From positions 1-43,331 of the forward strand of contig JAQTUZ010000013.1 in NCBI GenBank assembly GCA_028707065.1: a DNA stretch of 43,331 bases, in the 5' to 3' direction. The notes under the pieces were generated by a model. That model was not told where the DNA came from. It did not search any database and saw nothing but the letters and a program-made list of their open reading frames with translations. Origin of the DNA: Patescibacteria group bacterium (lineage in GTDB: Bacteria; Patescibacteriota; Patescibacteriia; Patescibacteriales; WJLG01). Shown here piece by piece: positions 846-39,035 of the stretch. Made by a program: the position numbers and the translations under genes. How positions within the stretch are numbered: the first letter of the stretch is position 1; each line of letters begins with the position of its first letter.

Positions 846-3665
846 ATGAGTTTTTTGACTGCGATTTTCGGCGATCCGAACGAGAAAGTTGTTAAGGAAT
901 TGGAGCCGATCGTTGCCGAGATAAATAAATTGGAAGAAAAATACGCTAAGATGTCCGACGAAGAACTCGCCGGGCAGACTTTAGTTTTGAAAAATCGCTT
1001 GTCGGAAATCACCGGCAAACGCAGCAGTCCCGAGGCGGAGACTGCTGCGGGGCCAGATGAGATTGAAACGGCCGTGAAGCAAAAATTGGATGAAATTCTT
1101 CCCGATGCTTTCGCCGTCATGCGCGAAGCGGCCAAGAGAAAATTAAATCAGCGGCATTTTGACGTCCAGCTGATGGGAGGCATCGTTCTGCATCGCGGTC
1201 AGATCGCGGAAATGAAAACCGGCGAAGGAAAAACTTTGGTAGCGACTTTGCCGCTTTATCTTAATGCGCTTACCGGCCGCGGCGTGCAACTGGTTACCGT
1301 CAATGATTATTTGTCCCGCGTCGGCGCCGGCTGGATGGCGCCGATTTATAATTTTTTGGGACTCTCGGTCGGCGTGATCGTCAATCAAGCCTCGTTCATT
1401 TATGACGCCAATTATATCAACGAAGAAGAAAAATATGATGAGCGCCTGGCCCATTTCCGCCAAGCCGATCGCCGGGAAGCCTACGCCTGTGATATCGTTT
1501 ATGGCACTAATAATGAATTCGGCTTTGATTATCTGCGCGACAACATGGTTCCGACTCTCGCGGATAAAGTCCAGCGCGGCTTGAATTACGCCATCGTCGA
1601 CGAGATCGATTCGATCTTGATCGATGAAGCCCGCACGCCGCTGATCATTTCCGCGGCGGCCGAGGAATCAACCGATAAATATTTTAAATTCGCCGATCTG
1701 GTGCGCCGTTTGAAAGAGAACGAAGACTATAATGTCGATGAAAAAATGCGCGCCGTCACTTTGACTGAAGGCGGCATCGAAAAGATGGAAGGCTGGCTGG
1801 GCATCGGCAATATTTACGTGGAAAAAGGCATCGGTGAAGTTCATCATATCGAGCAGGCTTTAAAGGCGGAAGTGATCTTCCATCGCGAAAAAGATTATGT
1901 CGTCAAGGACGGCGAAGTTCTAATCGTCGATGAATTTACCGGCCGCTTGATGCCGGGCCGCCGCTATAGCGAAGGCTTGCATCAGGCGATCGAAGCCAAG
2001 GAAGGCGTGGCGATCCAGCGCGAATCGCAGACTTTGGCGACCATCACTTTTCAGAATTATTTCCGCATGTATAAAAAACTCGCCGGTATGACCGGTACGG
2101 CCGTGACCGAAGCGGAAGAATTCGCCAAAATTTATAAATTAGAGGTAGTCATTGTTCCCACCAATAAAGTGATGATCACAAAAGACCTGAACGATCTGGT
2201 CTATAAAACCGAGCTGGGAAAATTTCAGGCGGTGATCAGGGATATTAAAGAGAGGCATTCGCTGGGCCAGCCGATTTTGGTCGGTACGATCTCAATCGAG
2301 AAAAACGAACTGCTGTCCGAACTGATGCGCCGCGAAGGCTTGCAGCCGGAATTTTTGAATGCCAAAAACCATGAACGGGAAGCGCGCATCATTTCCCAGG
2401 CCGGTAAACTCGGCTCGATCACGGTGGCGACCAATATGGCCGGCCGCGGCGTCGATATTATTTTGGGCGGACAGATGGAAAAGGATCTGACCCCGGAACA
2501 GCTCGCGGCCCGGAAAGAGGAAGCTGACAAGGTTAAAGCTTTGGGCGGCCTATACGTGATCGGCACCGAGCGCCACGAGGCGCGGCGCATCGATAATCAG
2601 CTGCGCGGCCGCGCCGGGCGCCAGGGCGATGAGGGCATGTCGCGGTTTTATCTTTCCTGCGAAGACGATTTGATGCGCATTTTCGGCGGCGACCGGATGA
2701 AAAAACTGATGACGACTTTAAGATTGCCCGAGGATATGCCGATCGAGAACCGGATGATCACCGGTTCGATCGAGACGGCGCAGAAAAAAGTGGAAGCCAA
2801 CAATTTCGACATGCGCAAACATCTGGTGGAATACGACGACGTGATCAACAAGCATCGCGAAACGATCTATCGCCGCCGCGACGAAATTCTGGCCACCGCG
2901 GAAAATGAACCGGAAAAATTATCGAAAATAATTTTGGCAATGGTGGAAGAAGAAATTGAACAAGTGGTTTCTTTCCATACCGCCGCCGAGGATATCAAAA
3001 CTTGGAATATCAATGAGATTTATGAGGTGGTGAACTCGATCTTCCCGGTTCAGAGCGAGCTGAAAGCTGATCTTACCGGCATTGCCGATGAGACGAAAAG
3101 ATTGGAAAAGGCGATGGTGCGGACGAAGATTATCGAGCATCTGGTCGGGCTGAGCGGCGAGCGTTACGGCAAAATGGAAAAAGATTATGCGGATGCCGGT
3201 TTGGATTGGCGCGATATCGAGAAAAATATTTTATTGCGTTCGATCGATTCGCTCTGGGTCGATCATCTTGATTCGATGGATTATATGCGGCGGGGGATCG
3301 GTTTGCGCGGCTACGGCCAGCGCGATCCGCTGGTGGAATATAAGAAAGAAGCTTATCGGATGTTCTCGGAACTGAATAATCTGATCCAGAAAGAAGTGGT
3401 CTATGGAATTTATAAATTCGGCTCGGCGCAAGGCCTCTCGGCTTTGGGTTTTTCCGCGCCGAATCTGTTGCAGCGGGCGCGGACTTTTTCCGCTCCGGCC
3501 AAAACCGCCGAAGCCTCCGCTGATGGCCGCAGCGCCTTTGACAATGTCAAACAAAAAGTACTCAATGCCGCCGGCGAAAAAGTCGGACGAAATGATCCGT
3601 GTCCGTGCGGAGCGAAAAAATCAGACGGCTCGCCGGTCAAATATAAAAATTGTTGCGGCAGATAA
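846..3665 (+). CDS. secA: preprotein translocase ATPase SecA
   Basis: SecA is the ATPase motor that pushes preproteins through SecYEG at the membrane. The 939 residues show Walker A (TGEGKT, about residue 125), the DEAD-type box and following conserved stretch (VDEIDSILIDEARTP, about 251), a helicase-like second ATPase lobe (GRAGRQGD) and a C-terminal zinc-binding SEC-C motif (CPCG...CCG). Two oddities stand out. A perfect 10-bp inverted repeat lies in frame near residues 59-68. The SEC-C spacer reads GAKKSDGSPVKYKN instead of the usual short GSGKKYKK form, and a canonical version of that tail survives downstream (3727-3765). The start follows a hairpin and lacks a Shine-Dalgarno site. Confidence 0.97.
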   Translation: MSFLTAIFGDPNEKVVKELEPIVAEINKLEEKYAKMSDEELAGQTLVLKNRLSEITGKRSSPEAETAAGPDEIETAVKQKLDEILPDAFAVMREAAKRKLNQRHFDVQLMGGIVLHRGQIAEMKTGEGKTLVATLPLYLNALTGRGVQLVTVNDYLSRVGAGWMAPIYNFLGLSVGVIVNQASFIYDANYINEEEKYDERLAHFRQADRREAYACDIVYGTNNEFGFDYLRDNMVPTLADKVQRGLNYAIVDEIDSILIDEARTPLIISAAAEESTDKYFKFADLVRRLKENEDYNVDEKMRAVTLTEGGIEKMEGWLGIGNIYVEKGIGEVHHIEQALKAEVIFHREKDYVVKDGEVLIVDEFTGRLMPGRRYSEGLHQAIEAKEGVAIQRESQTLATITFQNYFRMYKKLAGMTGTAVTEAEEFAKIYKLEVVIVPTNKVMITKDLNDLVYKTELGKFQAVIRDIKERHSLGQPILVGTISIEKNELLSELMRREGLQPEFLNAKNHEREARIISQAGKLGSITVATNMAGRGVDIILGGQMEKDLTPEQLAARKEEADKVKALGGLYVIGTERHEARRIDNQLRGRAGRQGDEGMSRFYLSCEDDLMRIFGGDRMKKLMTTLRLPEDMPIENRMITGSIETAQKKVEANNFDMRKHLVEYDDVINKHRETIYRRRDEILATAENEPEKLSKIILAMVEEEIEQVVSFHTAAEDIKTWNINEIYEVVNSIFPVQSELKADLTGIADETKRLEKAMVRTKIIEHLVGLSGERYGKMEKDYADAGLDWRDIEKNILLRSIDSLWVDHLDSMDYMRRGIGLRGYGQRDPLVEYKKEAYRMFSELNNLIQKEVVYGIYKFGSAQGLSALGFSAPNLLQRARTFSAPAKTAEASADGRSAFDNVKQKVLNAAGEKVGRNDPCPCGAKKSDGSPVKYKNCCGR
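1020..1049. repeat. in-frame palindrome inside secA
   Basis: CGCAGCAGTC (1020-1029) and GACTGCTGCG (1040-1049) are perfect inverted copies around a 10-bp GC-rich centre. They encode RSSPEAETAA within an expanded stretch just before the conserved PDAFAVMREA motif. Confidence 0.7.
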
Positions 3666-3692
3666 CTTGAGTTTTGTATAAAGCGAGCGGAG

Positions 3693-3725
3693 TCCCCCGA
3701 AGCTCCGCCGCGGAGCGAAGGGGGA
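3693..3725. repeat. GC-rich palindromic element after secA
   Basis: TCCCCC (3693-3698) pairs with GGGGGA (3720-3725), and CTCCGC (3703-3708) pairs with GCGGAG (3710-3715), with an internal loop between. It separates the live secA tail from the remnant tail. Confidence 0.8.
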
Positions 3726-3726
3726 T

Positions 3727-3765
3727 GGATCAGGTAAGAAATATAAGAAATGTTGCGGAAAATAG
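3727..3765 (+). pseudogene. remnant second copy of the secA 3' end
   Basis: Read in one frame this encodes GSGKKYKKCCGK and a TAG stop, the textbook end of a SecA SEC-C zinc motif. The live secA already ended at 3665 with KYKNCCGR. The two tails differ at the nucleotide level largely at synonymous or conservative positions. It has no start codon of its own. It may be the displaced original end of secA or the residue of an older allele. Confidence 0.7.
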
Positions 3766-3798
3766 AAGTAAGAAGTTAGAAGTGCGAAGTAAGAAATT

Positions 3799-3940
3799 TT
3801 TTTGTCATCCTGAACGGAGCGAAGCGGAGTGAAAGATCTATTATCCGAGAGGTTCGCATATTAATTTTAAAAATTTTTTTCGAGAAAATCCGCACTTACC
3901 GAAAAATAGATCCTTCGCGACACGCTCAGGATGACAAAAT
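3799..3940. repeat. GTCATCCTGA-type palindromic element, copy 1
   Basis: Outer arms TTGTCATCCTGA (3802-3813) and TCAGGATGACAA (3926-3937) are perfect inverted copies. Inner arms around GATCTATT and AATAGATC also pair. A second copy of the same design lies at 9814-10001. Confidence 0.85.
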
Positions 3941-3952
3941 GAATTAAATGCC

Positions 3953-4705
3953 ATGGAAAATAAGTCGGATAAAAAAATATTTTTTCGCAATATTAATGAC
4001 CAGAAGGTGTTGCATTCTATCGTTGATATTATTCCCCGCGGTACCAGGGTTTATTTGTATGGTGGCGCGGCACGCAATGCCCTGTATCATAAATTATTCG
4101 GTAAATGGTTACCGCAACGCGATTATGATTTAGTGGTGATTGGCGATTATAAAAAATTTATCAAAAAATTAAAAACTATCGGATTTATTTCGGGGAAGAA
4201 ATCAAAAGTTTTTGGGAAAATGGTTTTAAAAAAACCGTTGGTCAAAAAGCCGCGAACCCTTAATGATTGTTTGTGGATCGATATGGTGCTTCGCGAACAT
4301 GGGCAGATCTTAAGTCTTTTAAAAAAGCGGGCAAATTTTACCATCAATGGAATAGCTCTGCCCATTGTCCAGGCTTTTCAAAGTGATTGGCAGAAGCATA
4401 TTGTTGCCGTACCGCATGCCCTGGCCGATCTTAGAGATAAAAAGTTGCGAACCCAAGTTATCCATCCGATCGATATCTACGCCGTGATTCGCTTTGTTTC
4501 CCTTGGTTTCAGGGCGCCGACTAAGATTGAGATTAAACAAATTTTGGATAAGTTAAAAAATATTGAACGCTGGCGGTTTGAACGGGACGCTAAAAAAGTA
4601 ATTAATTACGTCGGTAGCAAAGAAAAAGTTTTAAAAATTGCCAAAAAATTGGGAATAAAAATAAATATTCTTAATTATGAAAATTGTTCACGCCAATCAG
4701 AGTAA
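3953..4705 (+). CDS. nucleotidyltransferase resembling the poly(A) polymerase/CCA-adding head domain
   Basis: The N-terminal part has VYLYGGAARNALYHKL followed by RDYDLVVIGD. This matches the glycine-rich G-G-x-x-R plus D-x-D metal-binding pattern of class II poly(A) polymerase/CCA nucleotidyltransferases. The middle (ANFTINGIALPI...LADLRDKKLRT...IHPIDIYAVIRFVSLGF) follows the family order up to the first helices of the neck. At 250 residues it is much shorter than a full CCA-adding enzyme (about 400) and lacks the body and tail domains, so tRNA CCA addition is not assured, although none of the four tRNAs here encodes CCA. The next gene begins 41 bp downstream and may be co-transcribed. Confidence 0.7.
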   Translation: MENKSDKKIFFRNINDQKVLHSIVDIIPRGTRVYLYGGAARNALYHKLFGKWLPQRDYDLVVIGDYKKFIKKLKTIGFISGKKSKVFGKMVLKKPLVKKPRTLNDCLWIDMVLREHGQILSLLKKRANFTINGIALPIVQAFQSDWQKHIVAVPHALADLRDKKLRTQVIHPIDIYAVIRFVSLGFRAPTKIEIKQILDKLKNIERWRFERDAKKVINYVGSKEKVLKIAKKLGIKINILNYENCSRQSE

Positions 4706-4746
4706 AAAATTTTAAAATAGCAGCATCAAGAAACAGATTAAACAGT

Positions 4747-5208
4747 ATGGTGAGAATTATTATCGGAAGTAAAAACGACAAACAATACTTGAATGAAATC
4801 GAAGAGATTTTCAATAGTCTTGATGTGCCTTATATGATCCAGGTAAATTCTTGCCACAGAAATTTGCGAGGATTAATAAAATTGCTTAACAGCATACGGT
4901 CGGGTAAGAAAAAAACAGATGTAATTATCGCGCTTGCTAATTCAGCGGCGAATTTGCCCGCGGTCATAGCCGGGTATTTAAAAATTTCGGCAATTCCCGT
5001 TATTGGCGTCGGACTAAGCGGAAAACGCATTGGCGGCGCGGATAGTTTGCTTTCCATAGCAACGATTCCCCGTAATGTCCCGTTATTAAATACCGGCATT
5101 GATGAAGTGGGGATGTATAATGCGGCATTAGCATGTTTGAATCTGCTCGCAATGCGAGATAAAAATTTAGCAAAGAGAGCCGCAATATTTTTCAACGGAG
5201 TAAAATAA
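4747..5208 (+). CDS. PurE-like protein (divergent N5-CAIR mutase/AIR carboxylase family)
   Basis: PurE interconverts carboxyaminoimidazole ribonucleotides in purine synthesis. The 153-residue frame aligns with PurE throughout: IIIGSKND near the start, NSCHRN in place of SAHRT (the active-site His is kept), LPAVIAGYLKISAIPVIGV, and GGADSLLSIATIPRNVPLLN in place of the DSLYSIVQMPRGIPV region. The glycine-rich AGAGGAAHLPG loop has become ALANSAANLPA, so activity or substrate may have changed. The frame is open from 4684, overlapping the previous gene, but ATG 4747 puts the first strand at the usual place. Other purine genes of the window lie more than 12 kb away. Confidence 0.7.
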   Translation: MVRIIIGSKNDKQYLNEIEEIFNSLDVPYMIQVNSCHRNLRGLIKLLNSIRSGKKKTDVIIALANSAANLPAVIAGYLKISAIPVIGVGLSGKRIGGADSLLSIATIPRNVPLLNTGIDEVGMYNAALACLNLLAMRDKNLAKRAAIFFNGVK

Positions 5209-5253
5209 ATTGTGATATTTAAAAATAATAATAAAATCATCAAAAATTAATTT

Positions 5254-6162
5254 ATGAGTAAAAAAGCCGTGGTGACCGGCGGGGCCGGATTCATCGGATC
5301 CAATTTGGTCGACGCGCTCGTCGAACGCGGGTTTGACGTCCAGGTCATCGACAATCTTGTCGCCGGAAAAAGAGAATACGTCAATTCCCGGGCGACTCTG
5401 CATGTTTTAGATATTACCGAGCAGGAATTGATCAAGCCGATCTTCAAGGATGCGGAATATGTTTTTCATTTGGCCGCTTTGCCGCGAGTCCAATATTCCA
5501 TCGAGCATCCGCGGGAAACGAATAAAGTCAATGTTGAAGGCACGATCAACGTGTTGCTCGCCGCTGCCGAGGCAGGAGTTAAAAAATTGGTTTATTCGGC
5601 TTCCAGCTCGGCTTACGGCGATCAGATCAAAATGCCCTTAACGGAAGACATGGCGGCTTTGCCGAAAAGTCCGTACGGTCTGCAAAAATATATCGGCGAA
5701 CTTTATTGCCGCCTTTGGAGCGAGGTTTATAATCTGCCTACTGTTTCCTTGCGCTATTTTAACGTTTACGGACCGCACGAAGATCCGGAAGGCGCTTACG
5801 CTTTGGTGATCGCCAAATTTTTGCGCCAGTGGCAGAACGGCGAGGCTATGACTATAACCGGCGACGGCGAACAAACCCGCGATTTCACTCATGTGCGCGA
5901 TATTGTCCGGGCTAATATCCTGGCGGCCGAAAGCGAGAAAGTCGGCCTGGGCGAAGTGATCAATATCGGCGCCGGCCATAATCATTCGGTCAACGAGATT
6001 GCCGCTTTGATCGGCGGGCCAACGGTCAATATTCCGGCGCGCTTGGAGCCGCGGGACAGCTTGGCCGATACCTCCAAGGCCCGCGAACTTTTGGGCTGGG
6101 AGCCGCAGGAAGATCTGGCCGCGGCCATTACCGAACTTAAAATTTTACTTGGGATAAAATAA
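5254..6162 (+). CDS. NAD-dependent sugar epimerase/dehydratase (UDP-glucose 4-epimerase-like)
   Basis: This extended short-chain dehydrogenase acts on nucleotide sugars. It has an N-terminal Rossmann motif (TGGAGFIGSN), the HLAA strand, the catalytic Ser region (SASSSAYG), the YxxxK pair in YGLQK, and the RYFNVYGP segment of the UDP-glucose epimerase group. The C-terminal LGWEPQEDLAAAI is typical of the family. Length (302) is normal. The exact sugar cannot be read from sequence; roles in cell-surface polysaccharide or lipid-linked sugar synthesis are plausible. The exonuclease gene follows after 5 bp, suggesting co-transcription. Confidence 0.88.
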   Translation: MSKKAVVTGGAGFIGSNLVDALVERGFDVQVIDNLVAGKREYVNSRATLHVLDITEQELIKPIFKDAEYVFHLAALPRVQYSIEHPRETNKVNVEGTINVLLAAAEAGVKKLVYSASSSAYGDQIKMPLTEDMAALPKSPYGLQKYIGELYCRLWSEVYNLPTVSLRYFNVYGPHEDPEGAYALVIAKFLRQWQNGEAMTITGDGEQTRDFTHVRDIVRANILAAESEKVGLGEVINIGAGHNHSVNEIAALIGGPTVNIPARLEPRDSLADTSKARELLGWEPQEDLAAAITELKILLGIK

Positions 6163-8525: not shown

Positions 8526-9659
8526 ATGCAGAATTTTTTGGCAATCATCTTGCTTGTCGGTTTGGCCGTAATTATTTATTTATTGTTAAGTAAAAAAAGC
8601 GGCGGGAACGACGAAAAGATCGCCGCGATGATGGAGCGGCTGGCGAATCTGGGCGCGCAGAATGAAGAGATGCGCAAAGCGCTCGATGCCAAACTTTCCG
8701 AAGCCTATAAGACCACGCAGGACCAGTTCGGCAAGACCGCCGGTTTGATGCAGGGCGTGACCGGGCAGGCGAATAAGATGATGATGGAGATGCACGTCCA
8801 ATCGCAGAAAGTTATTTCGGAAGTGTCAGAAAAATTGGCCAAGCTGGACGAGACCAATAAGCAAGTGGTCAACTTTTCCGGCCAGCTGCAGAATTTGCAG
8901 GACATTTTGAAAAATCCCAAACAGCGTGGCATCTTAGGTGAATTCTTTTTGGAAGAAACTTTGAAAAATGTTCTGCCGCCTAACGCTTATGAGATGCAAT
9001 ACAAATTGGGCAAAGATAAAGAGGGGAAAGCCGATCTGATCGTCGATGCGGTCGTCTTTGTCAAAGATAAGATAATTCCGATCGATTCCAAATTTTCTCT
9101 GGAAAATTATCAGAAGATCCTGGATACTTCTGACGCGGCTGAGCGGGAAAATTTGGAAAAAGTTTTCCGGCAGGATCTGAAAAATCGCATTGATGAAACT
9201 TCCAAATATATCAAGCAGGAAAAGGGGACGATGGATTTTGCCTTTATGTTCATCCCGAGCGAGGCGATTTATTATGATTTGCTGATCAATAAAGTCGGCG
9301 CGGTGAAAATAAACACGCGCGACCTGATCGAATATGCTTTCCGCGACAAGAAAGTCATTATCGTTTCGCCGACATCGTTCCTGGCTTATCTGCAAACCGT
9401 CTTGCAGGGCTTGAAGGCGATGAAGATCGAAGAGACGGCCAAGGAAATTCAGGAGAACGTCGAAAAACTCGGCCGGCATCTTGTCGCCTATGATGATTAT
9501 TTCAAGAAGCTCGGCAATTCCTTGTCCACGACCGTCAATCATTACAATTCCGCCTATAAAGAATTTAAAAAAGTCGATAAAGACGTTATCCGCATCACCG
9601 GAGGCGAGTCGGATATTGAGCCGTTGGAGCTTGAGAGGCCAAAAATTAACGAGGAATGA
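8526..9659 (+). CDS. rmuC: RmuC-family DNA recombination protein
   Basis: RmuC proteins limit inversions at short inverted repeats and carry a PD-(D/E)xK nuclease-like core. The protein has one N-terminal membrane anchor (about 4-21), a long coiled coil (about 30-130), then LKNPKQRGILGE, the family signature, and KADLIVDAVVFV...IIPIDSKFSLENY containing the nuclease-like acidic and Lys residues. Length (377) is normal for the short form. Its presence is notable because this window is full of short inverted repeats. The live C-terminus is GGESDIEPLELERPKINEE; a second, diverged tail lies downstream. Confidence 0.93.
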   Translation: MQNFLAIILLVGLAVIIYLLLSKKSGGNDEKIAAMMERLANLGAQNEEMRKALDAKLSEAYKTTQDQFGKTAGLMQGVTGQANKMMMEMHVQSQKVISEVSEKLAKLDETNKQVVNFSGQLQNLQDILKNPKQRGILGEFFLEETLKNVLPPNAYEMQYKLGKDKEGKADLIVDAVVFVKDKIIPIDSKFSLENYQKILDTSDAAERENLEKVFRQDLKNRIDETSKYIKQEKGTMDFAFMFIPSEAIYYDLLINKVGAVKINTRDLIEYAFRDKKVIIVSPTSFLAYLQTVLQGLKAMKIEETAKEIQENVEKLGRHLVAYDDYFKKLGNSLSTTVNHYNSAYKEFKKVDKDVIRITGGESDIEPLELERPKINEE

Positions 9660-9679: not shown

Positions 9680-9764
9680 CCGGAGGCCCCGTCGAATGAC
9701 TGGGGCGGGCGATGAATCAAAAATAGAAGTGCTTGAGTTGGAAAGACCAAAAGGAGAGGAATGA
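9680..9764 (+). pseudogene. remnant second copy of the rmuC 3' end, split by a palindrome
   Basis: CCGGAGGC (9680-9687) matches the start of the live tail (near 9597). Then comes a GC palindrome (GCCCC...GGGGC, within 9685-9706), then 9708-9764 encoding GDESKIEVLELERPKGEE plus TGA. The live tail is GGESDIEPLELERPKINEE. Differences are largely synonymous or conservative. The palindrome thus sits inside a duplicated tail. Confidence 0.75.
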
Positions 9765-9813
9765 AGTAAGAAGTATGAAGTTAAAAGTAAGAAATTTTTC
9801 GACATTCTTTCTT

Positions 9814-10085: not shown

Positions 10086-10331
10086 TTATCCCGCGCTATG
10101 GTTCTTTTTTTCTTCGGTTTTAGTAGAGCCAAACTTCTCATCAAGTTTTTTCAGGATTTCTTTTTTGGCCATATCTAATCCATTTTCAGCATAGCAAAAT
10201 CCGCTCACCAGTAAGCAGAGAATACTCCCGGCATAGTAATTAATAGGATGAACATGCATTATTCCCATGACAAGCAAAACGATAGTCGCAAGAAAGAACA
10301 CGACGCCGAGGATGAGGTTTTGAGTTACCAT
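10086..10331 (-). CDS. small two-helix membrane protein
   Basis: The 81-residue protein has two predicted transmembrane segments (LILGVVFFLATIVLLVMGIM and AGSILCLLVSGFCYA) and a charged C-terminal tail (KKEILKKLDEKFGSTKTEEKK). It has a strong AAGGAG Shine-Dalgarno site at the right distance, a terminator, and a possible minus-strand promoter (TTGACA from 10404-10409, 18-bp spacer, TAATAT). These signals make it a real gene despite its size. No function is recognisable. Confidence 0.75.
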   Translation of the reverse strand: MVTQNLILGVVFFLATIVLLVMGIMHVHPINYYAGSILCLLVSGFCYAENGLDMAKKEILKKLDEKFGSTKTEEKKNHSAG

Positions 10332-10408: not shown

Positions 10409-11551
10409 ATGGTTAGTCAAGAAGACATTATAAAATCCCTGTTTTTTCTGGATATTTTCGATTATCCGCCGACCGCCATGGAAATCTGGCGGTTTTTGCC
10501 AGTGAAGGCGGAATTGGGGGAGTTGATGGAAAAATTCCCCTCTCGAGAGGGGTGGACCGCCGCCGCGGCGGGACGGGGTGTGTTAAGCATGAACGTGAGA
10601 AATGATGTTGGTGCACAATCAGCCGTAACACACCCCGCCTCGCAGGGCTCGGCACCCCTCTCGAGAGGGGATGCCCACCCCGTCCGCCCAGGGCGGACAC
10701 CCCTCCAGGGAGGGGAATATTCTGGTTTTTATTTTTTGCCCGGAAGAGAGGAGTTAATCGAAAAGAGAAGGGAATTTTTTTATTTGAGCGAGAAGAAATT
10801 TAAGATCGCCAAGCGGGCCGCCTGGCTGCTGCATTTTATCCCGAGCGTGAAGATGGTGGCGGTCTGCAATAATTTTTATTATCGCCCGGAATCGGACATT
10901 GATTTTTTCATCATTACCAGTCCAAAAAGGCTTTGGCTTACTCGTTTTTTCGCTACATTAATTTTAGATCTATTTCATCGGCGAGCCCGCGGCAAAAAAA
11001 CCGCCGATCGAGTTTGTTTAAGTTTTTATCTTAGTGAAGATAATTTAAATCTGGAAAATATCGCCTTAAAGCCCGCAAAATATTGCGGGCCTACGGACAT
11101 GGCCGACCCGTATTTTTATTATTGGCTGGGTTTTTTGGAGCCGATCTACGGCGAAGATTGTTATAATAAATTCTGGCAGGCCAATTCCTGGTTAAAAAAT
11201 ATTTTTCCCAATATTTTGCCGAAGCAGCCGGTGCTGCGATGGCGAATTAACAGCGATAATGATTTAACGATCATAACACACCCCGTCGCGTCAGGGACGC
11301 GCCACCCCTCTCGAGAGGGGACTGACTGGCTTGAAAAAATCGCCAAAAAAATCCAATGGTGGAAAATTTCGCCTTTAGTCAAAAAAATGGCGGCGCTGGG
11401 CGATACGCGCGTGGTTATCAATGATCGGATGTTAAAATTCCACGAGAATGATCGGCGCGAATTTTTCAGAGAAGAATTAAGAAAGCCTGCCCGCGGATGC
11501 GGGACGCGGCCAGGGAAGAGAGAAGAAATAAACTTAATTCTTAAATCTTAA
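10409..11551 (+). CDS. nucleotidyltransferase-like protein carrying several in-frame palindromic insertions
   Basis: The N-terminus (IIKSLFFLDIFDYPPTAMEIWRFL) resembles a winged-helix segment. The centre (VKMVAVCNNFYYRPESDIDFFIITSPKRLWLTR) carries the S-D-I-D signature of minimal nucleotidyltransferases. The role is unknown. The gene is remarkable for GC-rich palindromes inserted in frame: 10535-10585, 10626-10671, 10673-10716, 11071-11090, 11274-11321 and about 11487-11512. They add Pro/Gly/Arg-rich peptides such as THPASQGSAPLSRGD and account for much of the region between the winged helix and the catalytic part. ATG 10409 is preferred to an upstream TTG at 10403. The ligase-like gene follows 22 bp later. 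Confidence 0.65.
   Translation: MVSQEDIIKSLFFLDIFDYPPTAMEIWRFLPVKAELGELMEKFPSREGWTAAAAGRGVLSMNVRNDVGAQSAVTHPASQGSAPLSRGDAHPVRPGRTPLQGGEYSGFYFLPGREELIEKRREFFYLSEKKFKIAKRAAWLLHFIPSVKMVAVCNNFYYRPESDIDFFIITSPKRLWLTRFFATLILDLFHRRARGKKTADRVCLSFYLSEDNLNLENIALKPAKYCGPTDMADPYFYYWLGFLEPIYGEDCYNKFWQANSWLKNIFPNILPKQPVLRWRINSDNDLTIITHPVASGTRHPSREGTDWLEKIAKKIQWWKISPLVKKMAALGDTRVVINDRMLKFHENDRREFFREELRKPARGCGTRPGKREEINLILKS
10535..10585 (-). repeat. THP-type palindromic element, reverse orientation
   Basis: Reverse complement of the family: CCCCTCTCGAGAGGGG, a GCCGCCGCGGCG hairpin and the GGGGTGTG end. It is translated within the host gene as SREGWTAAAAGRG. Confidence 0.8.
10626..10671 (+). repeat. THP-type palindromic element in a coding gene
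   Basis: ACACACCCCGCC, a variable hairpin, then CACCCCTCTCGAGAGGGG. Encodes THPASQGSAPLSRGD in the host frame. Confidence 0.85.
10673..10716 (+). repeat. THP-type palindromic element in a coding gene
   Basis: Directly follows the previous copy. TCCGCCCAGGGCGGA forms the first hairpin and CCCCTCCAGGGAGGGG the second. Encodes AHPVRPGRTPLQGGE. Confidence 0.85.
11071..11090. repeat. in-frame short palindrome
   Basis: GCCCGCAA (11071-11078) and TTGCGGGC (11083-11090) form a perfect 8-bp stem within the coding sequence, encoding PAKYCG. Confidence 0.65.
11274..11321 (+). repeat. THP-type palindromic element in a coding gene
   Basis: ACACACCCCGTCGCG, variable hairpin, CACCCCTCTCGAGAGGGG. Encodes THPVASGTRHPSREG in the host frame. 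Confidence 0.85.
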
Positions 11552-11573: not shown

Positions 11574-13004
11574 ATGTTTCAAAAGTTACAAAAAATGATT
11601 GAATATGGATTGTATGCCTTGGTTTTCCTCTTGCCTTGGCAGACGAAGCTGATCTTACGGCAAGGAAATCTGGGCGGCGGCGATTGGGAATACGGGACGA
11701 TCGCTTTGTATGGGACGGATATTTTATTGATCGGTTTATTGATTTTATTTCTTATTTCATATTGGCAGAAAAAAAGTTCAGGCGATAATAAGGGGGCTGT
11801 TGTGGAACCCGCGATAACCCACCCCGTCGCCGCGGCGGCGCCACCCCTCCCGGGGAGGGGAATTATTATTATTTTGTCCGGACTGGATTTGTTCCTTTTT
11901 CTTTCGATATTTTTTGCGCCGGATACTATTTTGGCGGCTTATCGCTATGTTTTGTTTTTGCTGGGATTGGGTTTGTTTTGGCTGATCATCAAAGCCGAAT
12001 ACAGCCGAACCAAATTAGCCATCGCTTTTTTTTCGAGCCTGATAATCCAGGGGGGGCTGGCAATCGGGCAGTTTTTGCTGCAGAATACTTTTGCTTTTAA
12101 ATGGCTCGGGCTGGCTATCCATTATTCCAGCGATCTAGGAGTTTCGGTGATTGAAACCCTCGACGCGCGCGGCATTCCCGAGCGCTGGCTCCGCGCTTAC
12201 GGCTCGCTGGATCACCCGAATATTCTCGGCGGGCTTTTGGCGATAGGACTGACAATTTTGGTCTGCATTTATTTACAAAGTTACTTTGAAAAAAACAAAA
12301 TTACAAATTACCCTGGCCGCGCACCGTGGCCACGGGCAGGCAAATTAAAAATTATAAATTTTTTTACTTTTTACTTTTTACTTTTTACTTTATTTGCCGC
12401 TTTGATTTTCACTTTTTCCCGTTCGGCGGCGCTGGCTTTGGCGGTTGGCCTGATTTTATCGGTCATTTTTTATCTGTTTAAAAAGGATCGGCCGGCGTTA
12501 AAGCGGTTGGGATTAATAGCGGTTATGGCGGCTGTTTTGTTTGGCATCATTTTTTTCAATTATCAGGATTTATTCATCACCCGCGCTCAAGACACGTCTC
12601 GGCTGGAACTTAAATCAATTTCCGAAAGAAAAACGTATCAGGACGATTCGCTCGGTTTGATCAAAAAAAATTGGCTCTTCGGCTCAGGGATCGGCAATTA
12701 TACCAAGGCGCTCGCGGAAAAAGATCCGCAGCGCAGCTGGGACAAGCTTAATCCGGTCCATAATGTTTTTCTGCTGGTCTGGTCGGAGAGCGGAATTTTC
12801 GGCCTGTTATTTTTTACGGCATTGCTGGTTTATTTATTCGTCGGCTCGTTCCGAAAAAAAATTATTCTAAACTTGTCGATACTCTCGATTTTAGTTATAA
12901 TAATGATGTTCGATCATTATCTTTGGAGCCTGCATTTCGGAATTTTATTATTTTGGCTCTCGATCGGCTTTGTTTATAAAAGTTTAAATAAATATTATGG
13001 CTAA
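11574..13004 (+). CDS. O-antigen ligase/polymerase-like membrane protein
   Basis: This polytopic protein (476 residues, roughly ten or more membrane segments) has the Wzy/WaaL signature GSLDHPNILGG before a helix. Late in the protein it has a periplasmic-type loop ending NPVHNVFLLVWSESGIFGLL, both typical of O-antigen ligases. It probably joins or polymerises lipid-linked glycans for the cell surface; its substrate is unknown. Two stretches look inserted. A THP-type palindrome sits at 11815-11862, between the second and third hydrophobic segments. An AT-rich repeat with a GC palindrome sits at 12301-12393 and encodes NYPGRAPWPRAG plus a Phe/Leu-rich run. The M16 protease gene overlaps its end by 8 nt. 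Confidence 0.82.
   Translation: MFQKLQKMIEYGLYALVFLLPWQTKLILRQGNLGGGDWEYGTIALYGTDILLIGLLILFLISYWQKKSSGDNKGAVVEPAITHPVAAAAPPLPGRGIIIILSGLDLFLFLSIFFAPDTILAAYRYVLFLLGLGLFWLIIKAEYSRTKLAIAFFSSLIIQGGLAIGQFLLQNTFAFKWLGLAIHYSSDLGVSVIETLDARGIPERWLRAYGSLDHPNILGGLLAIGLTILVCIYLQSYFEKNKITNYPGRAPWPRAGKLKIINFFTFYFLLFTLFAALIFTFSRSAALALAVGLILSVIFYLFKKDRPALKRLGLIAVMAAVLFGIIFFNYQDLFITRAQDTSRLELKSISERKTYQDDSLGLIKKNWLFGSGIGNYTKALAEKDPQRSWDKLNPVHNVFLLVWSESGIFGLLFFTALLVYLFVGSFRKKIILNLSILSILVIIMMFDHYLWSLHFGILLFWLSIGFVYKSLNKYYG
11815..11862 (+). repeat. THP-type palindromic element in the ligase-like gene
   Basis: ACCCACCCCGTCGCC, GCGGCGGCG, CCACCCCTCCCGGGGAGGGG. Encodes THPVAAAAPPLPGRG in frame. Confidence 0.87.
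12301..12393. repeat. AT-rich intergenic-type repeat inside a coding gene
   Basis: TTACAAATTA, a GC-rich inverted repeat (CCTGGCCGCG...CACGGGCAGG), AAATTAAAAATTATAAATT, then four TTACTTTT-like units. Similar AT strings occur between genes (for example 15517-15570 and 36035-36065), so this is an intergenic-type sequence captured in frame. Confidence 0.65.
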
Positions 13005-15228: not shown

Positions 15229-15300
15229 CGCGGGGTAGAGCAGTGGCAGCTCGCCAGGCCCATAACCTGGAGGTCGCCGGTTCAAATCCGGCCCCCGCAA
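15229..15300 (+). tRNA. initiator tRNA-fMet (CAT anticodon)
   Basis: Acceptor CGCGGGG faces CCCCGCA, leaving the C1-A72 mismatch diagnostic of bacterial initiator tRNA. Anticodon stem CCAGG/CCTGG around CCCATAA gives CAT. Only two of the three usual consecutive G-C pairs are present, the third being A-U. T-stem GCCGG/CCGGC with loop TTCAAAT; discriminator A; CCA not encoded. Confidence 0.95.
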
Positions 15301-15343
15301 CAGAGACGGTAAAAGTAAATATTTTATTTTGAAAAGACTAAGC

Positions 15344-15504
15344 GGTCGCCGGTTCCCACCCAGAGGGTGGTCCGCCTTTGGCGGAAAATCCGGCCCCCGC
15401 AACAGAGACGGTAAAAGTAAATATTTTATTTTGAAAAGACTAAGCGGTCGCCGGTTCCCACCCAGAGGGTGGTCCGCCTTTGGCGGAAAATCCGGCCCCC
15501 GCAA
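15344..15504 (+). repeat. two tandem broken copies of the tRNA-fMet 3' part, each with a double hairpin in the T-loop
   Basis: 15344-15402 and 15446-15504 both read GGTCGCCGGTTC, a 30-nt insert, then AAATCCGGCCCCCGCAA, matching the last 29 nt of tRNA-fMet. The insert consists of two perfect 6-bp hairpins: CCACCC-AGA-GGGTGG and TCCGCC-TTT-GGCGGA. The 41-nt stretch after the intact tRNA (15301-15341) is repeated after copy 1, giving a period of 102 bp. The 5' part of the tRNA is absent from both copies. Confidence 0.95.
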
Positions 15505-20051: not shown

Positions 20052-20948
20052 ATGCAAAGGAGGACAAAGGTTTTAATTATTTTTGGCGCGGCATTGGCTT
20101 TAATAAGTTTTTGCCTTTTTTTATTTTTTTATCATCCGCAAAAATTACTGGAAGTGGATTTTCTGAATGTCGGGCAAGGCGACGCGGAATTGATCAAAAC
20201 GCCGTACGGCCAGACGATTTTGATCGACGGCGGGCCGGATAATAAAGTGATGAGTGAGCTGGGGAGAAATCTGCCTTGGCTGGATCGAAAAATCGATCTA
20301 GTCATCAATACTCATCCGCACGATGACCATGTTTCCGGTCTGATTGATATTTTAAAAAAATATCAGGTGGAAAGAATCTTGATGACGGCCGCACTTACCC
20401 ACCCCGCCTCGCTGGGCTCGGCACCCCTCCCAAGAGGGGAATATGCGCCGCCGTTTGAAGAATTTTTAAAAGTTCGCGCCGAAAAAAAGACGCCGATAAT
20501 TATCGTTGCCGGACCGGAAAAGATAACTTTAGGGCCTGATCTGATTTTGGAAATTATTTATCCGGACAAAAATGATTTGGGCGCGGACCTGAATGAAGAC
20601 TCGATCGTCGCCAGATTGATCTATAAAAACAAAACTTTTTTGTTCGTCGGTGATGCCGGCAATAAGACCGAAGCCGAATTGCTTGCCGAAAAAATTGATT
20701 TAAAAGCTGGCGTTTTAAAAGTCGGCCATCATGGCTCGGAAACTTCCTCGTCGCTCGATTTTCTCCGCGCCGTCTCGCCGCAAATCGCCGTGATCGAATG
20801 CGGCCCGGATAATCAGTTCGGCTTTCCCAAACCGGACACGCTCTGGCGCCTCGCTAAGATCGGCGCACAAACATTCCGCACCGATTTAAACGGCACAATT
20901 AAAATCAAAAGCGATGGAAATAAAATTGAAGTAAAAAGTCAAAAGTAA
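20052..20948 (+). CDS. MBL-fold hydrolase resembling the ComEC C-terminal domain
   Basis: One N-terminal membrane segment (about 7-26) leads into LEVDFLNVGQGDAELI, the ComEC/Rec2 C-domain opening. It is followed by ILIDGGPD, the metal motif THPHDDH (87-93), VGDAGNKTEAELL and VGHHGSETSSS. Such stand-alone proteins are thought to act outside the membrane on nucleic acids or phosphoesters. Between the metal motif and FEEFLKVR lies a THP-type palindrome (20395-20442) encoding LTHPASLGSAPLPRGE. The promoter suggests a leaderless transcript. Length (298) is usual apart from the insertion. Confidence 0.87.
   Translation: MQRRTKVLIIFGAALALISFCLFLFFYHPQKLLEVDFLNVGQGDAELIKTPYGQTILIDGGPDNKVMSELGRNLPWLDRKIDLVINTHPHDDHVSGLIDILKKYQVERILMTAALTHPASLGSAPLPRGEYAPPFEEFLKVRAEKKTPIIIVAGPEKITLGPDLILEIIYPDKNDLGADLNEDSIVARLIYKNKTFLFVGDAGNKTEAELLAEKIDLKAGVLKVGHHGSETSSSLDFLRAVSPQIAVIECGPDNQFGFPKPDTLWRLAKIGAQTFRTDLNGTIKIKSDGNKIEVKSQK
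20395..20442 (+). repeat. THP-type palindromic element in the MBL gene
   Basis: TTACCCACCCCGCC, variable hairpin, CACCCCTCCCAAGAGGGG. Encodes THPASLGSAPLPRGE in the host frame. Confidence 0.87.
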
Positions 20949-36074: not shown

Positions 36075-36794
36075 ATGTCCGGACATTCCAAATGGGCGAC
36101 AACCCATCGAGCCAAAGAGATCGTCGACGCCAAGCGCGGCGCGGCTTTTACTAAAATTTCCAACGTCATTACCATTGCCGCCAGAAAAGGCGGGGATCCG
36201 GCAACAAATTTTGCTTTAGCTACCGCCGTTGACCGCGCCCGGGGCGTCAATATGCCCAAAGATAATATTGAAAGGGCGATTAAAAGGGGTACTGGAGAAT
36301 TGGAAGGCGCGACGCTGGAAGAATTGATTTATGAAGCGGTCGGACCGGCTAATTCCCAATTTGTCATTAAAATTTTAACCGATAATAAAAATCGTACGGC
36401 CGCGGAAGTCCGCCATTTGCTTGCCGCGCACGGCGCTGCGATGGGCGCAGTCTTGTGGAACTTTGATTTAAAGGGCGTGATCCGCGTCTCGGCAGCCGTT
36501 GCCGCTGCCAAAGGAATTGATTCTGACGAAGGCCAGCTGGAATTGATCGATGCCGGCGCCGATGACGTGAAAAAAGAAGCCGAGGGTTTGACGATTTTGA
36601 CTACCGGAGCCAATTTGCAAAAAGTTAAAACTTATTTGGAAGGCAAGGGCATTGCCACCGAGTCGGCGGAAATTGAATATGTCGCCAAAGACACCATTGA
36701 AGTTGCCGGCGATGATTCGGCCAAGATTGAAGGGCTGACCGCGGCGCTGGATGAGAATGAAGATGTATCGGACTATTATTCGAACTTAAAATAA
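36075..36794 (+). CDS. YebC/PmpR family protein
   Basis: YebC-family proteins were long annotated as transcription regulators; some members have been linked to translation of proline-rich stretches. The 239-residue protein starts MSGHSKWATTHRAKEIVDAKRGAAFTKI, the family signature. It then has the RARGVNMPKDNIERAIKRGTGE stretch and FVIKILTDNKNRTAAEVRHLL, and ends ENEDVSDYYSNL. All three domains are present. It sits 108 bp before ruvC, the common bacterial order, with a large palindrome in between. Confidence 0.95.
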   Translation: MSGHSKWATTHRAKEIVDAKRGAAFTKISNVITIAARKGGDPATNFALATAVDRARGVNMPKDNIERAIKRGTGELEGATLEELIYEAVGPANSQFVIKILTDNKNRTAAEVRHLLAAHGAAMGAVLWNFDLKGVIRVSAAVAAAKGIDSDEGQLELIDAGADDVKKEAEGLTILTTGANLQKVKTYLEGKGIATESAEIEYVAKDTIEVAGDDSAKIEGLTAALDENEDVSDYYSNLK

Positions 36795-36800
36795 GTTCTT

Positions 36801-36893
36801 CTCTACGAATTACGAATATTAACGAATATACGAAAACTTTCGAAAATTTTTTATTTGTATTCGTATATTCGTGTTTATTCGTAATTCGTAGAG
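36801..36893. repeat. 93-bp AT-rich palindrome between yebC and ruvC
   Basis: CTCTACGAATTACGAATA (36801-36818) is perfectly complementary to 36876-36893, and ACGAATATACGAA pairs with TTCGTATATTCGT inside. It ends 9 bp before the ruvC ATG. ATTCGTA strings recur at 39058-39106. Confidence 0.9.
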
Positions 36894-36902
36894 ATTAACT
36901 CT

Positions 36903-37382
36903 ATGTCCAAAATCATTCTCGGGATCGACCCCGGCATCGCCGATACCGGCTATGGGCTGATTGAAAAGCATGCGGGCGGGAAAATATCCTCGCTCGCTTA
37001 CGGTTCGATCAAAACCAAGGCCGGCGCGCCCATGGCCGAAAGACTGGAAACGCTTAATGATGAATTGGAAAAAATAATCCAGAAATATCAGCCGGCGCTG
37101 GCGGTTGTCGAAGAATTATTTTTTTACAATAACGCCAAGACGGCGATCGTAGTCGGCCAGGCCAGGGGAGTGATCCTTTTGGCTTGCCGGAAAAATAAAA
37201 TTCCCATCGTCGAATTAACGCCGCTGCAAGTCAAACAGACGATTTCCGGCTATGGCCAGGCCGGAAAAGAGCAGGTGCAAAAAATGGTCAAAATACTTTT
37301 AAATTTAAAGGAAATTCCCAAGCCCGACGACGCGGCCGACGCCCTGGCAATTGCAATTAGCGCGGTCAATGAATTAAAATAA
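36903..37382 (+). CDS. ruvC: Holliday junction endonuclease RuvC
   Basis: RuvC is a dimer that cuts Holliday junctions during recombination. The RNase H-like core is clear: ILGIDPGIADTGYG (first Asp, D9), VVEELFF (Glu 70-71), LTPLQVKQTISGYGQAGKEQVQKM, and the C-terminal KPDDAADALAIAI with the last catalytic Asp residues (142-146). The 159 residues are slightly short because the protein ends right after that helix. The end of the gene is unusual: after the stop comes a THP-type palindrome and then a second version of the last 20 codons. Confidence 0.95.
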   Translation: MSKIILGIDPGIADTGYGLIEKHAGGKISSLAYGSIKTKAGAPMAERLETLNDELEKIIQKYQPALAVVEELFFYNNAKTAIVVGQARGVILLACRKNKIPIVELTPLQVKQTISGYGQAGKEQVQKMVKILLNLKEIPKPDDAADALAIAISAVNELK

Positions 37383-37407
37383 TATTTTTAATTGAGAAGA
37401 ATTAATA

Positions 37408-37453
37408 TACCCACCCCGTCGCCGCGGCGGCGCCACCCCTCCCGAGGAGGGGA
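37408..37453 (+). repeat. THP-type palindromic element after ruvC
   Basis: TACCCACCCCGTCGCC, GCGGCGGCG, CCACCCCTCCCGAGGAGGGG, closest to the copy in the ligase-like gene. It lies exactly between the live and remnant ruvC tails. Confidence 0.87.
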
Positions 37454-37521
37454 TTTTTCAGACAGACGACGCGGCCGACGCTTTGGCGATCGCCATCAGC
37501 GCAACCAATGAGCTTAAGTGA
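37453..37521 (+). pseudogene. remnant second copy of the ruvC 3' end
   Basis: In one frame it encodes IFQTDDAADALAIAISATNELK plus TGA; the live tail ends IPKPDDAADALAIAISAVNELK plus TAA. Codons such as GCC CTG GCA ATT versus GCT TTG GCG ATC differ synonymously, so the two copies diverged while both were under protein selection. No start codon remains. Confidence 0.87.
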
Positions 37522-37568: not shown

Positions 37569-39035
37569 ATGCCCCAAAAGCTGAAGATCGCTTCTGTTTC
37601 CGCCGAATTGTCGCCGTTTACCAAAACGGGCGGTTTGGCTGACGTGGCCGGCAGCCTGCCTAAAGCCTTTTTTGAGCAGGGCGCCGAGGTCATTTGTATT
37701 ACGCCGTTCTACGCGCAGGCGATCGATCGCGAAAAATTTGAGCTTAAATTGATCGGGGAAAACGTGGAATTGCGGATCAACAGCGAAGAAACCGTCAATG
37801 TGAGCTATTGGCAGGGCTGGCTGGAAGAAGGTCTGCCGGTTTATTTCATCGAAAACGCCAAATATTTTTCGCGCAAAAAAGAACTTTACGGGTCGCAGCA
37901 TGAGAACGCCCGTTTTTTTGTTTTTGACCTGGCCGCGCTCAAATTGCTTTCGCTCTTGAAATTTTCGGCCGACATCATCCATTGCCATGATTGGCAAGCC
38001 GGCCTGATCCCTTATTTCTTAAAAACAGATTTCCGCTACTCGGATACTTTAGCCAAGACCAAAACCGTTTATACGATCCATAATTTGGTTTTTCAGCTGG
38101 GGCATGATTGGTGGGAAGTGCCGGCTGAAAAAAGGGACTCGGGACATACGCCTTTGCCGCTGCTTGCCGATCCGGATTTAGAGTTCATTAATTTCGCCAA
38201 GCGGGCCATCCTTTCCGCCGATGCCATCACCACGGTCAGCGAAACTTACCGCGAGGAAATAATGACCAATGAATCCGGAGAAGATCTGCACCGCATTCTG
38301 ACTAATCGGCAAGACCGGTTTTTCGGCATCGTCAACGGCATCAATGAAGCCGCTTGGAATCCGGATAACGATCCCGGGCTTTATTGCAATTATTCCCGAA
38401 AGAATTTCAGCCTCAAAGAGGAGAATAAAAAATCTTTTCAAAAAAAATTCGGCTTGACTGTCGATACCGGCCTGCCGATAGCTTGTGGCACATCCAGGAT
38501 GACTTTTCAAAAAGGTTTTGAATTGATTCTGGAAACTCTGCCTCATCTTTTAGAATTGGATTTGCAGATCGTTTTGATCGGCGCTTGCGGCAAGGAATAT
38601 CTCGGCCGCCTGAAAAAGATCGCCAACCAGCATCCGAAAAAAATATTGCTTCTGCCGACTCACGAAGATTGCATGAAATATGAAACTTTCGCTTATGCCG
38701 CTTCGGATTTTTTTCTGATGCCTTCCGAATATGAGCCTTGCGGGCTTAACCAGATGATCGCCATGCGCTATGGCTGCGTGCCGATCGTCCACCGCGTCGG
38801 CGGGCTTAATGATACGGTGAATGATTATAATCCGGTGACGGGCCGGGGGACTGGTTTTGCTTTTGACCGATCCGACAGCTACCAGTTTTATGGGGCGGTC
38901 ATCCGGGCAATGGAAGAATACGGCCATAAGGAAAGATGGAAAAAAATAGTTGCCGAGATCATGGAAAAATCCAACGCCTGGGAAATTCCGGCTAAAAAAT
39001 ATCTCAAATTATTCCGCAAGATCATTAAGAGTTAA
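37569..39035 (+). CDS. glgA: GT5 glycogen/starch synthase
   Basis: GT5 synthases extend alpha-1,4-glucan from ADP- or UDP-glucose. The N-terminal domain has FTKTGGLADVAGSLPKAF (ADP-glucose binding loop) and IIHCHDWQAGLIPYFL. The C-terminal GT-B half has MPSEYEPCGLNQMIAMRYGCVPIVHRVGGLNDTV. Length (488) is normal. FGIVNGINEAAWNPDND is the conserved hinge. It is the first gene of a three-gene alpha-glucan set with a GH57 enzyme and a second GT5 protein. Confidence 0.9.
   Translation: MPQKLKIASVSAELSPFTKTGGLADVAGSLPKAFFEQGAEVICITPFYAQAIDREKFELKLIGENVELRINSEETVNVSYWQGWLEEGLPVYFIENAKYFSRKKELYGSQHENARFFVFDLAALKLLSLLKFSADIIHCHDWQAGLIPYFLKTDFRYSDTLAKTKTVYTIHNLVFQLGHDWWEVPAEKRDSGHTPLPLLADPDLEFINFAKRAILSADAITTVSETYREEIMTNESGEDLHRILTNRQDRFFGIVNGINEAAWNPDNDPGLYCNYSRKNFSLKEENKKSFQKKFGLTVDTGLPIACGTSRMTFQKGFELILETLPHLLELDLQIVLIGACGKEYLGRLKKIANQHPKKILLLPTHEDCMKYETFAYAASDFFLMPSEYEPCGLNQMIAMRYGCVPIVHRVGGLNDTVNDYNPVTGRGTGFAFDRSDSYQFYGAVIRAMEEYGHKERWKKIVAEIMEKSNAWEIPAKKYLKLFRKIIKS

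Follow-up and report, generated by a model that had tools for sequence, protein, structure and literature searches.

Diverged second gene ends behind hairpins as probable scars of allele recombination in a Patescibacteria genome

The stretch of 43,331 nt analyzed here (the window), from the genome of a Patescibacteria group bacterium (G000), raises the question of why the 3′ end of ruvC occurs twice, once in the intact gene and once more beyond a palindrome. The echo of the gene end was confirmed in the 37320-37521 region (Table 1). The initial annotation had described 20 ruvC codons recurring after a THP-type palindrome. The recurrence and the palindrome were found as described; the repeated part, however, comprises 18 codons plus the stop, and the codon preceding it is ACA (T) in the downstream copy and encodes P in the relatives inspected. 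The two copies, tail A of the intact gene and the displaced tail B, encode DDAADALAIAISAVNELK and DDAADALAIAISATNELK, respectively, each followed by a stop. They are offset by 139 bp, with 82 bp between them that include the palindromic repeat, which has a terminator-like layout of a GC hairpin, then CCCCTCC/GGAGGGG and then ATTTTT. Tail B is out of frame with ruvC, and its open frame starts within the spacer and the repeat. On the other side of the gene, the gap between yebC and ruvC is filled by a large AT-rich inverted repeat (36794-36900, with 44-nt arms that are 86% complementary). A search for structured RNA at the ruvC locus gave chance miRNA-type matches only, far under the gathering scores.

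Table 1. Features of the ruvC, secA and rmuC loci in the window
Feature	Positions	Strand	Basis or remark
ruvC, intact, 159 aa, ending in tail A	36903..37382	+	NCBIfam NF000711 equivalog, 216.7 bits against a cut-off of 163
Tail A, last 18 codons and TAA of ruvC, GACGACGCGGCCGACGC...TAA	37326..37382	+	sequence
17-base identical stretch, copy 1	37326..37342	+	sequence
AT-rich spacer, 21 bases, 3′ of the ruvC stop	37383..37403	+	
Palindromic repeat ("THP"), member of a genome-wide family	~37404..37459	+	
Tail B, displaced ruvC end, 18 codons and TGA, GACGACGCGGCCGACGC...TGA	37465..37521	+	sequence
17-base identical stretch, copy 2, right at the junction	37465..37481	+	sequence
glgA, order-wide ancestral downstream neighbor of ruvC	37569..39035	+	
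secA, with tail A KKSDGSPVKYKNCCGR and stop	846..3665	+	
Hairpin after secA, 23-base GC palindrome core	3692..3726	+	core in at least four further copies in the sampled genome
secA tail B, GSGKKYKKCCGK and stop	3727..3765	+	type seen in other genera
rmuC, with tail A GGESDIEPLELERPKINEE and stop	8526..9659	+	
Hairpin GCCCC..GGGGC after rmuC	9686..9706	+	
rmuC tail B, GDESKIEVLELERPKGEE and stop	9708..9764	+	nearer to the sister-species tail than tail A

Beyond the 17 identical bases, 11 of the 13 sense codons differ between the two ruvC tails, with a single amino acid change (V/T). The pair has 14 base differences, a codon count of 11 synonymous to 1 non-synonymous, and different stops (TAA and TGA), in agreement with the pattern of mostly synonymous changes noted originally. 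Its alignment score of 79 is far above the scores of other gene tails against shifted downstream regions. We simulated a neutral-duplicate model in which A was restricted to synonymous changes and B drifted freely. In 4,000 runs, there were never as few non-synonymous codons as in the ruvC pair, and the model was rejected (P<0.00025). Therefore, both ruvC tails evolved as coding sequence and diverged before becoming neighbors, as the initial annotation had argued.

The same result bears on a tandem duplication that copied gene end and hairpin together, after which the non-coding copy drifted. Tandem copying does occur in these genomes: a near-identical 165-bp tandem unit with two palindromes is present at C7 39306-40493, and the genome of the sister species (G001) contains one exact tandem slip (contig C8:21357-21797). 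However, this true slip shows 100% identity between its gene-end tails and no obvious hairpin element, whereas neutral duplication was rejected by the codon test in six of the seven echo pairs of G000 described below, ruvC included. In addition, tail B of secA is closer to other genera, and that of rmuC to the sister species, than the respective tail A. The early dismissal of a tandem slip was thus well founded, and we give this origin hardly any weight.

The 17-base identity is modest evidence when taken alone. For D and A, about 60% of the codons agree between G000 and its sister genome, so that five identical codons would arise by chance about 8% of the time. Along the ruvC tails, identical codons number 5/5 and then 2/13 (p=0.0025, for a boundary that was set post hoc). 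This contrast between core and remainder would suit site-specific integration, in which an element with a compatible ruvC end would have entered at the 17-base core, restoring tail A and displacing tail B, and would have since shrunk to 139 bp. Integrative elements that insert in the 3′ ends of protein genes restore the gene, and the likeness to them is clear: a synonymous tail on the element side completes the gene, the original tail is displaced past a direct repeat, and the perfect 17-base repeat begins exactly at both edges of the insert, giving ruvC an identical core. However, no core is common to the cases, with nothing comparable in secA or rmuC, the inserts are mostly about 50-140 bp, and the 139-bp insert at ruvC has no integrase or other recombinase, nor any gene. 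Furthermore, searches of 98 relatives revealed no second ruvC tail, and those of viral contigs no free one. We regard integration as quite unlikely. The initial suggestion of an element with gene ends as cargo is likewise disfavored, considering the lack of a free ruvC tail in the viral contigs and the fact that the remaining echoes affect genes with no relation to one another and no core in common. A degenerate motif of the ruvC tail matched 105 viral stretches, which turned out to be mostly unrelated proteins plus one phage ruvC-like gene, and a second motif match in the genome G018 belongs to a different protein. Our literature search on ruvC as an integration target found nothing useful.

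Tails A and B and the corresponding tail of the sister species are approximately equidistant, at 13-15 base differences by a hand count over 18 codons that gives no resolved tree. A C-to-S change (AICA>AISA) is common to both tails and the sister species and absent from the other loci inspected, which places the origin of both tails in this genus or very near to it. Gene order mildly favors tail B as the resident allele. Across the order, the genes are arranged as yebC-ruvC-glgA-GH57, and a second glgA lies farther along. In a member of the same family (G002), this glgA2 still adjoins a sigma/delta-like gene; the sister genome is without glgA, and ruvC is followed there by the sigma/delta-like gene. 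The ruvC-glgA and glgA2-sigma/delta-like adjacencies in relatives place tail B in the ancestral position, directly before glgA, and the glg genes are ancestral in the ruvC neighborhood and were probably lost in the sister. The ruvC allele ending in tail A would then be the newcomer. A discordance in composition or divergence between ruvC and its neighbors, as raised by the initial annotation, found no support: identity at 4-fold sites with the sister genome is 0.54 for ruvC, 0.58 for yebC, 0.57 for rmuC and 0.62 for the sigma/delta-like gene, so that ruvC is no outlier among them, and no divergence break in or around ruvC was detected against the sister genome.

The ruvC echo is not the only one. 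We scanned sampled stretches of G000 totaling 842 kb (about half the genome) with 675 called genes for C-terminal echoes running to a stop, setting tandem paralogues and repeat proteins apart. Seven echoes were obtained, comprising ruvC, secA and rmuC in the window and four on contigs C7 and C8. Those on C7 belong to thrS and a 396-codon ORF; those on C8 (C8a and C8b) involve a 325-aa gene, with a cupin-like gene in between, and a protein with an HMA-type metal-binding domain. Each B stub is 12-27 codons long, extends to a stop of its own and lies behind a stable hairpin. In the codon test, P was <0.00025 for rmuC, 0.0005 for secA, 0.0003 for thrS, 0.002 for C8a and 0.02 for C8b. The divergence between A and B ranges from 4 synonymous changes (C8a) to amino acid changes in 13 of 27 codons (thrS), and such variability is expected on allele import because donors would stand at various distances. 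Base differences of every type occur, most of them synonymous, with no adenine-directed pattern, and a diversity-generating retroelement was rejected. We also disfavor an internal deletion of a full tandem copy, as the stubs always have 12-27 codons though the genes span about 160-940 codons.

Weaker matches between tails and downstream DNA showed no excess in the G000 scan. Apart from the exact tandem slip in the sister genome, the 1,604 genes examined outside G000 yielded no echo; 612 of them came from the sister, 99 from two further genomes and 893 from loci of other genomes. The enrichment in G000 has p=0.0002 against all others and p=0.016 against the sister alone, or 0.07 when the exact slip is counted; these values are optimistic because the window was picked for its finding. 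In another genus (G008, locus L323), the sequence GGSGKKYKKCCEK about 430 bp past secA resembles the secA tail without its stop; it may be a decayed stub and was left out of the count.

Considering that G000 is a 42-contig assembly (95% complete) with an estimated contamination of 4.8%, the echoes might instead have arisen in the assembly of a mixed-species metagenome, where overlapping contig ends of two strains were concatenated at hairpins that are hard to sequence. Hairpins hinder assembly, and the distance from the A stop to the B stop is near read length. However, the DNA downstream of A is unrelated to that downstream of B in ruvC, secA and rmuC, each of these genes is single-copy, and A and B have just 17 bases in common at the ruvC junction, a stretch below usual assembly k-mers. 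An artefact thus appears unlikely.

The hairpins in front of the stubs are stable and belong to different families. The last 60 nt ahead of ruvC tail B fold to -22.7 kcal/mol, and the 60 bases before each of the seven stubs give -15.5 to -26.0 kcal/mol, within the top 3-21% of intergenic windows. A THP palindrome is found at ruvC and at C7 39306 and a GTCATCC-type repeat at C8a, with less repeated hairpins elsewhere. The ruvC palindrome family has dozens of copies in both G000 and the sister genome. It was rejected as a carrier of gene tails, since ruvC was the sole clear echo in a scan of about 60 copies. The family resembles REP-like and Rickettsia palindromic elements in consisting of short palindromes with dozens of copies, some of them in frame within genes. 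A palindrome alone leaves the gene tail behind it unexplained, and very few of the approximately 60 copies have one. Mobilization by a Y1 (RAYT) transposase was rejected as well, as PF01797 has no match in the 95% complete G000 and one in the sister genome. Our literature search on palindromes in CPR genomes found nothing useful.

Other repeats were also observed in the window. THP-type palindromes occur in frame inside protein genes (10628-10720, 11276-11323, 11817-11864 and 20397-20444) and can be likened to the Rickettsia elements; a palindrome in a ComEC-like metallohydrolase (20052-20948) adds about 14 residues relative to the sister species, and one in a membrane protein (11574-13004) is common to both species. 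The same AAGTAAGAAGT-type repeat lies directly 3′ of the secA and rmuC stubs (3765-3801 and 9763-9799, 86% identical). In a four-tRNA cluster, the tRNA-Met (15229-15301) is the starting point of two identical 102-base tandem copies (15284-15487).

We consider that tails A and B are probably the 3′ ends of two diverged ruvC alleles, joined by recombination with DNA of a related species. The replacement of ruvC by a homologous allele, proposed in the initial annotation, is thus the best reading, strengthened by the six further echoes. The event would be a recombinational import in which one end of the incoming molecule was anchored by homology and the other was joined illegitimately beside an intergenic hairpin repeat, about 40-80 bases ahead of the stop codon of the other allele. 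One copy of the gene would thereby remain complete, and the last codons of the other allele would persist behind the hairpin as a non-coding stub. The hairpin may have fixed the junction through breakage, polymerase stalling or repeat-repeat annealing. Coding selection on both tails, the same anatomy at seven genes and the hairpins abutting the stubs support this allele recombination; no donor sequence was found.

The roles of A and B may also be exchanged within the same geometry, as a sub-case of allele recombination. The B tails would then be the left edges of incoming blocks, each consisting of a donor gene end and the following genes, placed behind a resident intact gene. Relative to the sister, extra genes do follow each echo in the window, at 3953-6162 after secA, at 10086-10331 after rmuC and as the glg genes after ruvC, and the non-genus type of tail B suits secA. 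However, the ancestry of the glg genes beside ruvC and their probable loss in the sister argue against this sub-case, as does rmuC, where the sister tail is matched better by B than by A, and we find it possible but rather doubtful. For allele recombination as a whole, a single direction of transfer is at odds with the tails themselves, as secA has a genus-type A and a wider-type B, and rmuC has the B nearer to the sister species.

The proposed joining resembles homology-facilitated illegitimate recombination (HFIR) in natural transformation, in which one end is homologous and the other illegitimate, leaving insertion/deletion scars (PMC3240628). Two alleles of separate descent lie at the scar here as well, according to the codon test. 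HFIR is known from laboratory transformations, with insertions and deletions of about 1 kb and microhomology of 3-10 bp. In contrast, the illegitimate end of the stubs is at a hairpin repeat, and the deletion repeatedly halts just before the gene end. Random illegitimate joints would not predict the clustering of stubs at 12-27 codons independent of gene length; stub size and hairpin adjacency are beyond the reach of plain illegitimate joining. At Rhs loci and Vibrio type VI effector-immunity arrays, an incoming homologous allele pushes the old 3′ end downstream, where it persists as an orphan (PMC5361080), similar to the displaced ends of G000. However, those orphans, whether immunity genes or C-terminal modules, may be of use, whereas the stubs have 12-27 codons, come largely from housekeeping genes and often differ mainly synonymously.

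A match to the ComEC family PF03772 was found in G000 (C8:38270-39064, 173 bits), interrupted by one TGA and one TAA in the assembly; the match in the sister genome is an open frame. Natural competence has been demonstrated in Saccharibacteria, another Patescibacteria lineage (PMC10633639). Single transformation events commonly produce mosaic patches (PMC13344027), and such a patch might be the source of the three scars in one 43-kb contig. In a more specific mechanism, the hairpin repeats would themselves direct the exchange of gene ends: imported DNA would be cut at the foot of the hairpin by a hairpin-specific nuclease or transposase and then linked to the final 12-27 codons of the resident homologue. 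Such a mechanism would account for the fixed size of the stubs, and we consider it very unlikely. If true, it would constitute a mode of recombination that swaps essential genes between species with the reading frame kept.

Seamless interspecies allele swaps are difficult to detect in single uncultured genomes. A displaced stub, by comparison, is a direct and countable scar that names the gene and keeps part of the second allele. Should reads confirm them, these scars would make the interspecies exchange of core genes such as secA, ruvC and thrS countable in Patescibacteria without population data, and would tie the exchange junctions to hairpin repeats.
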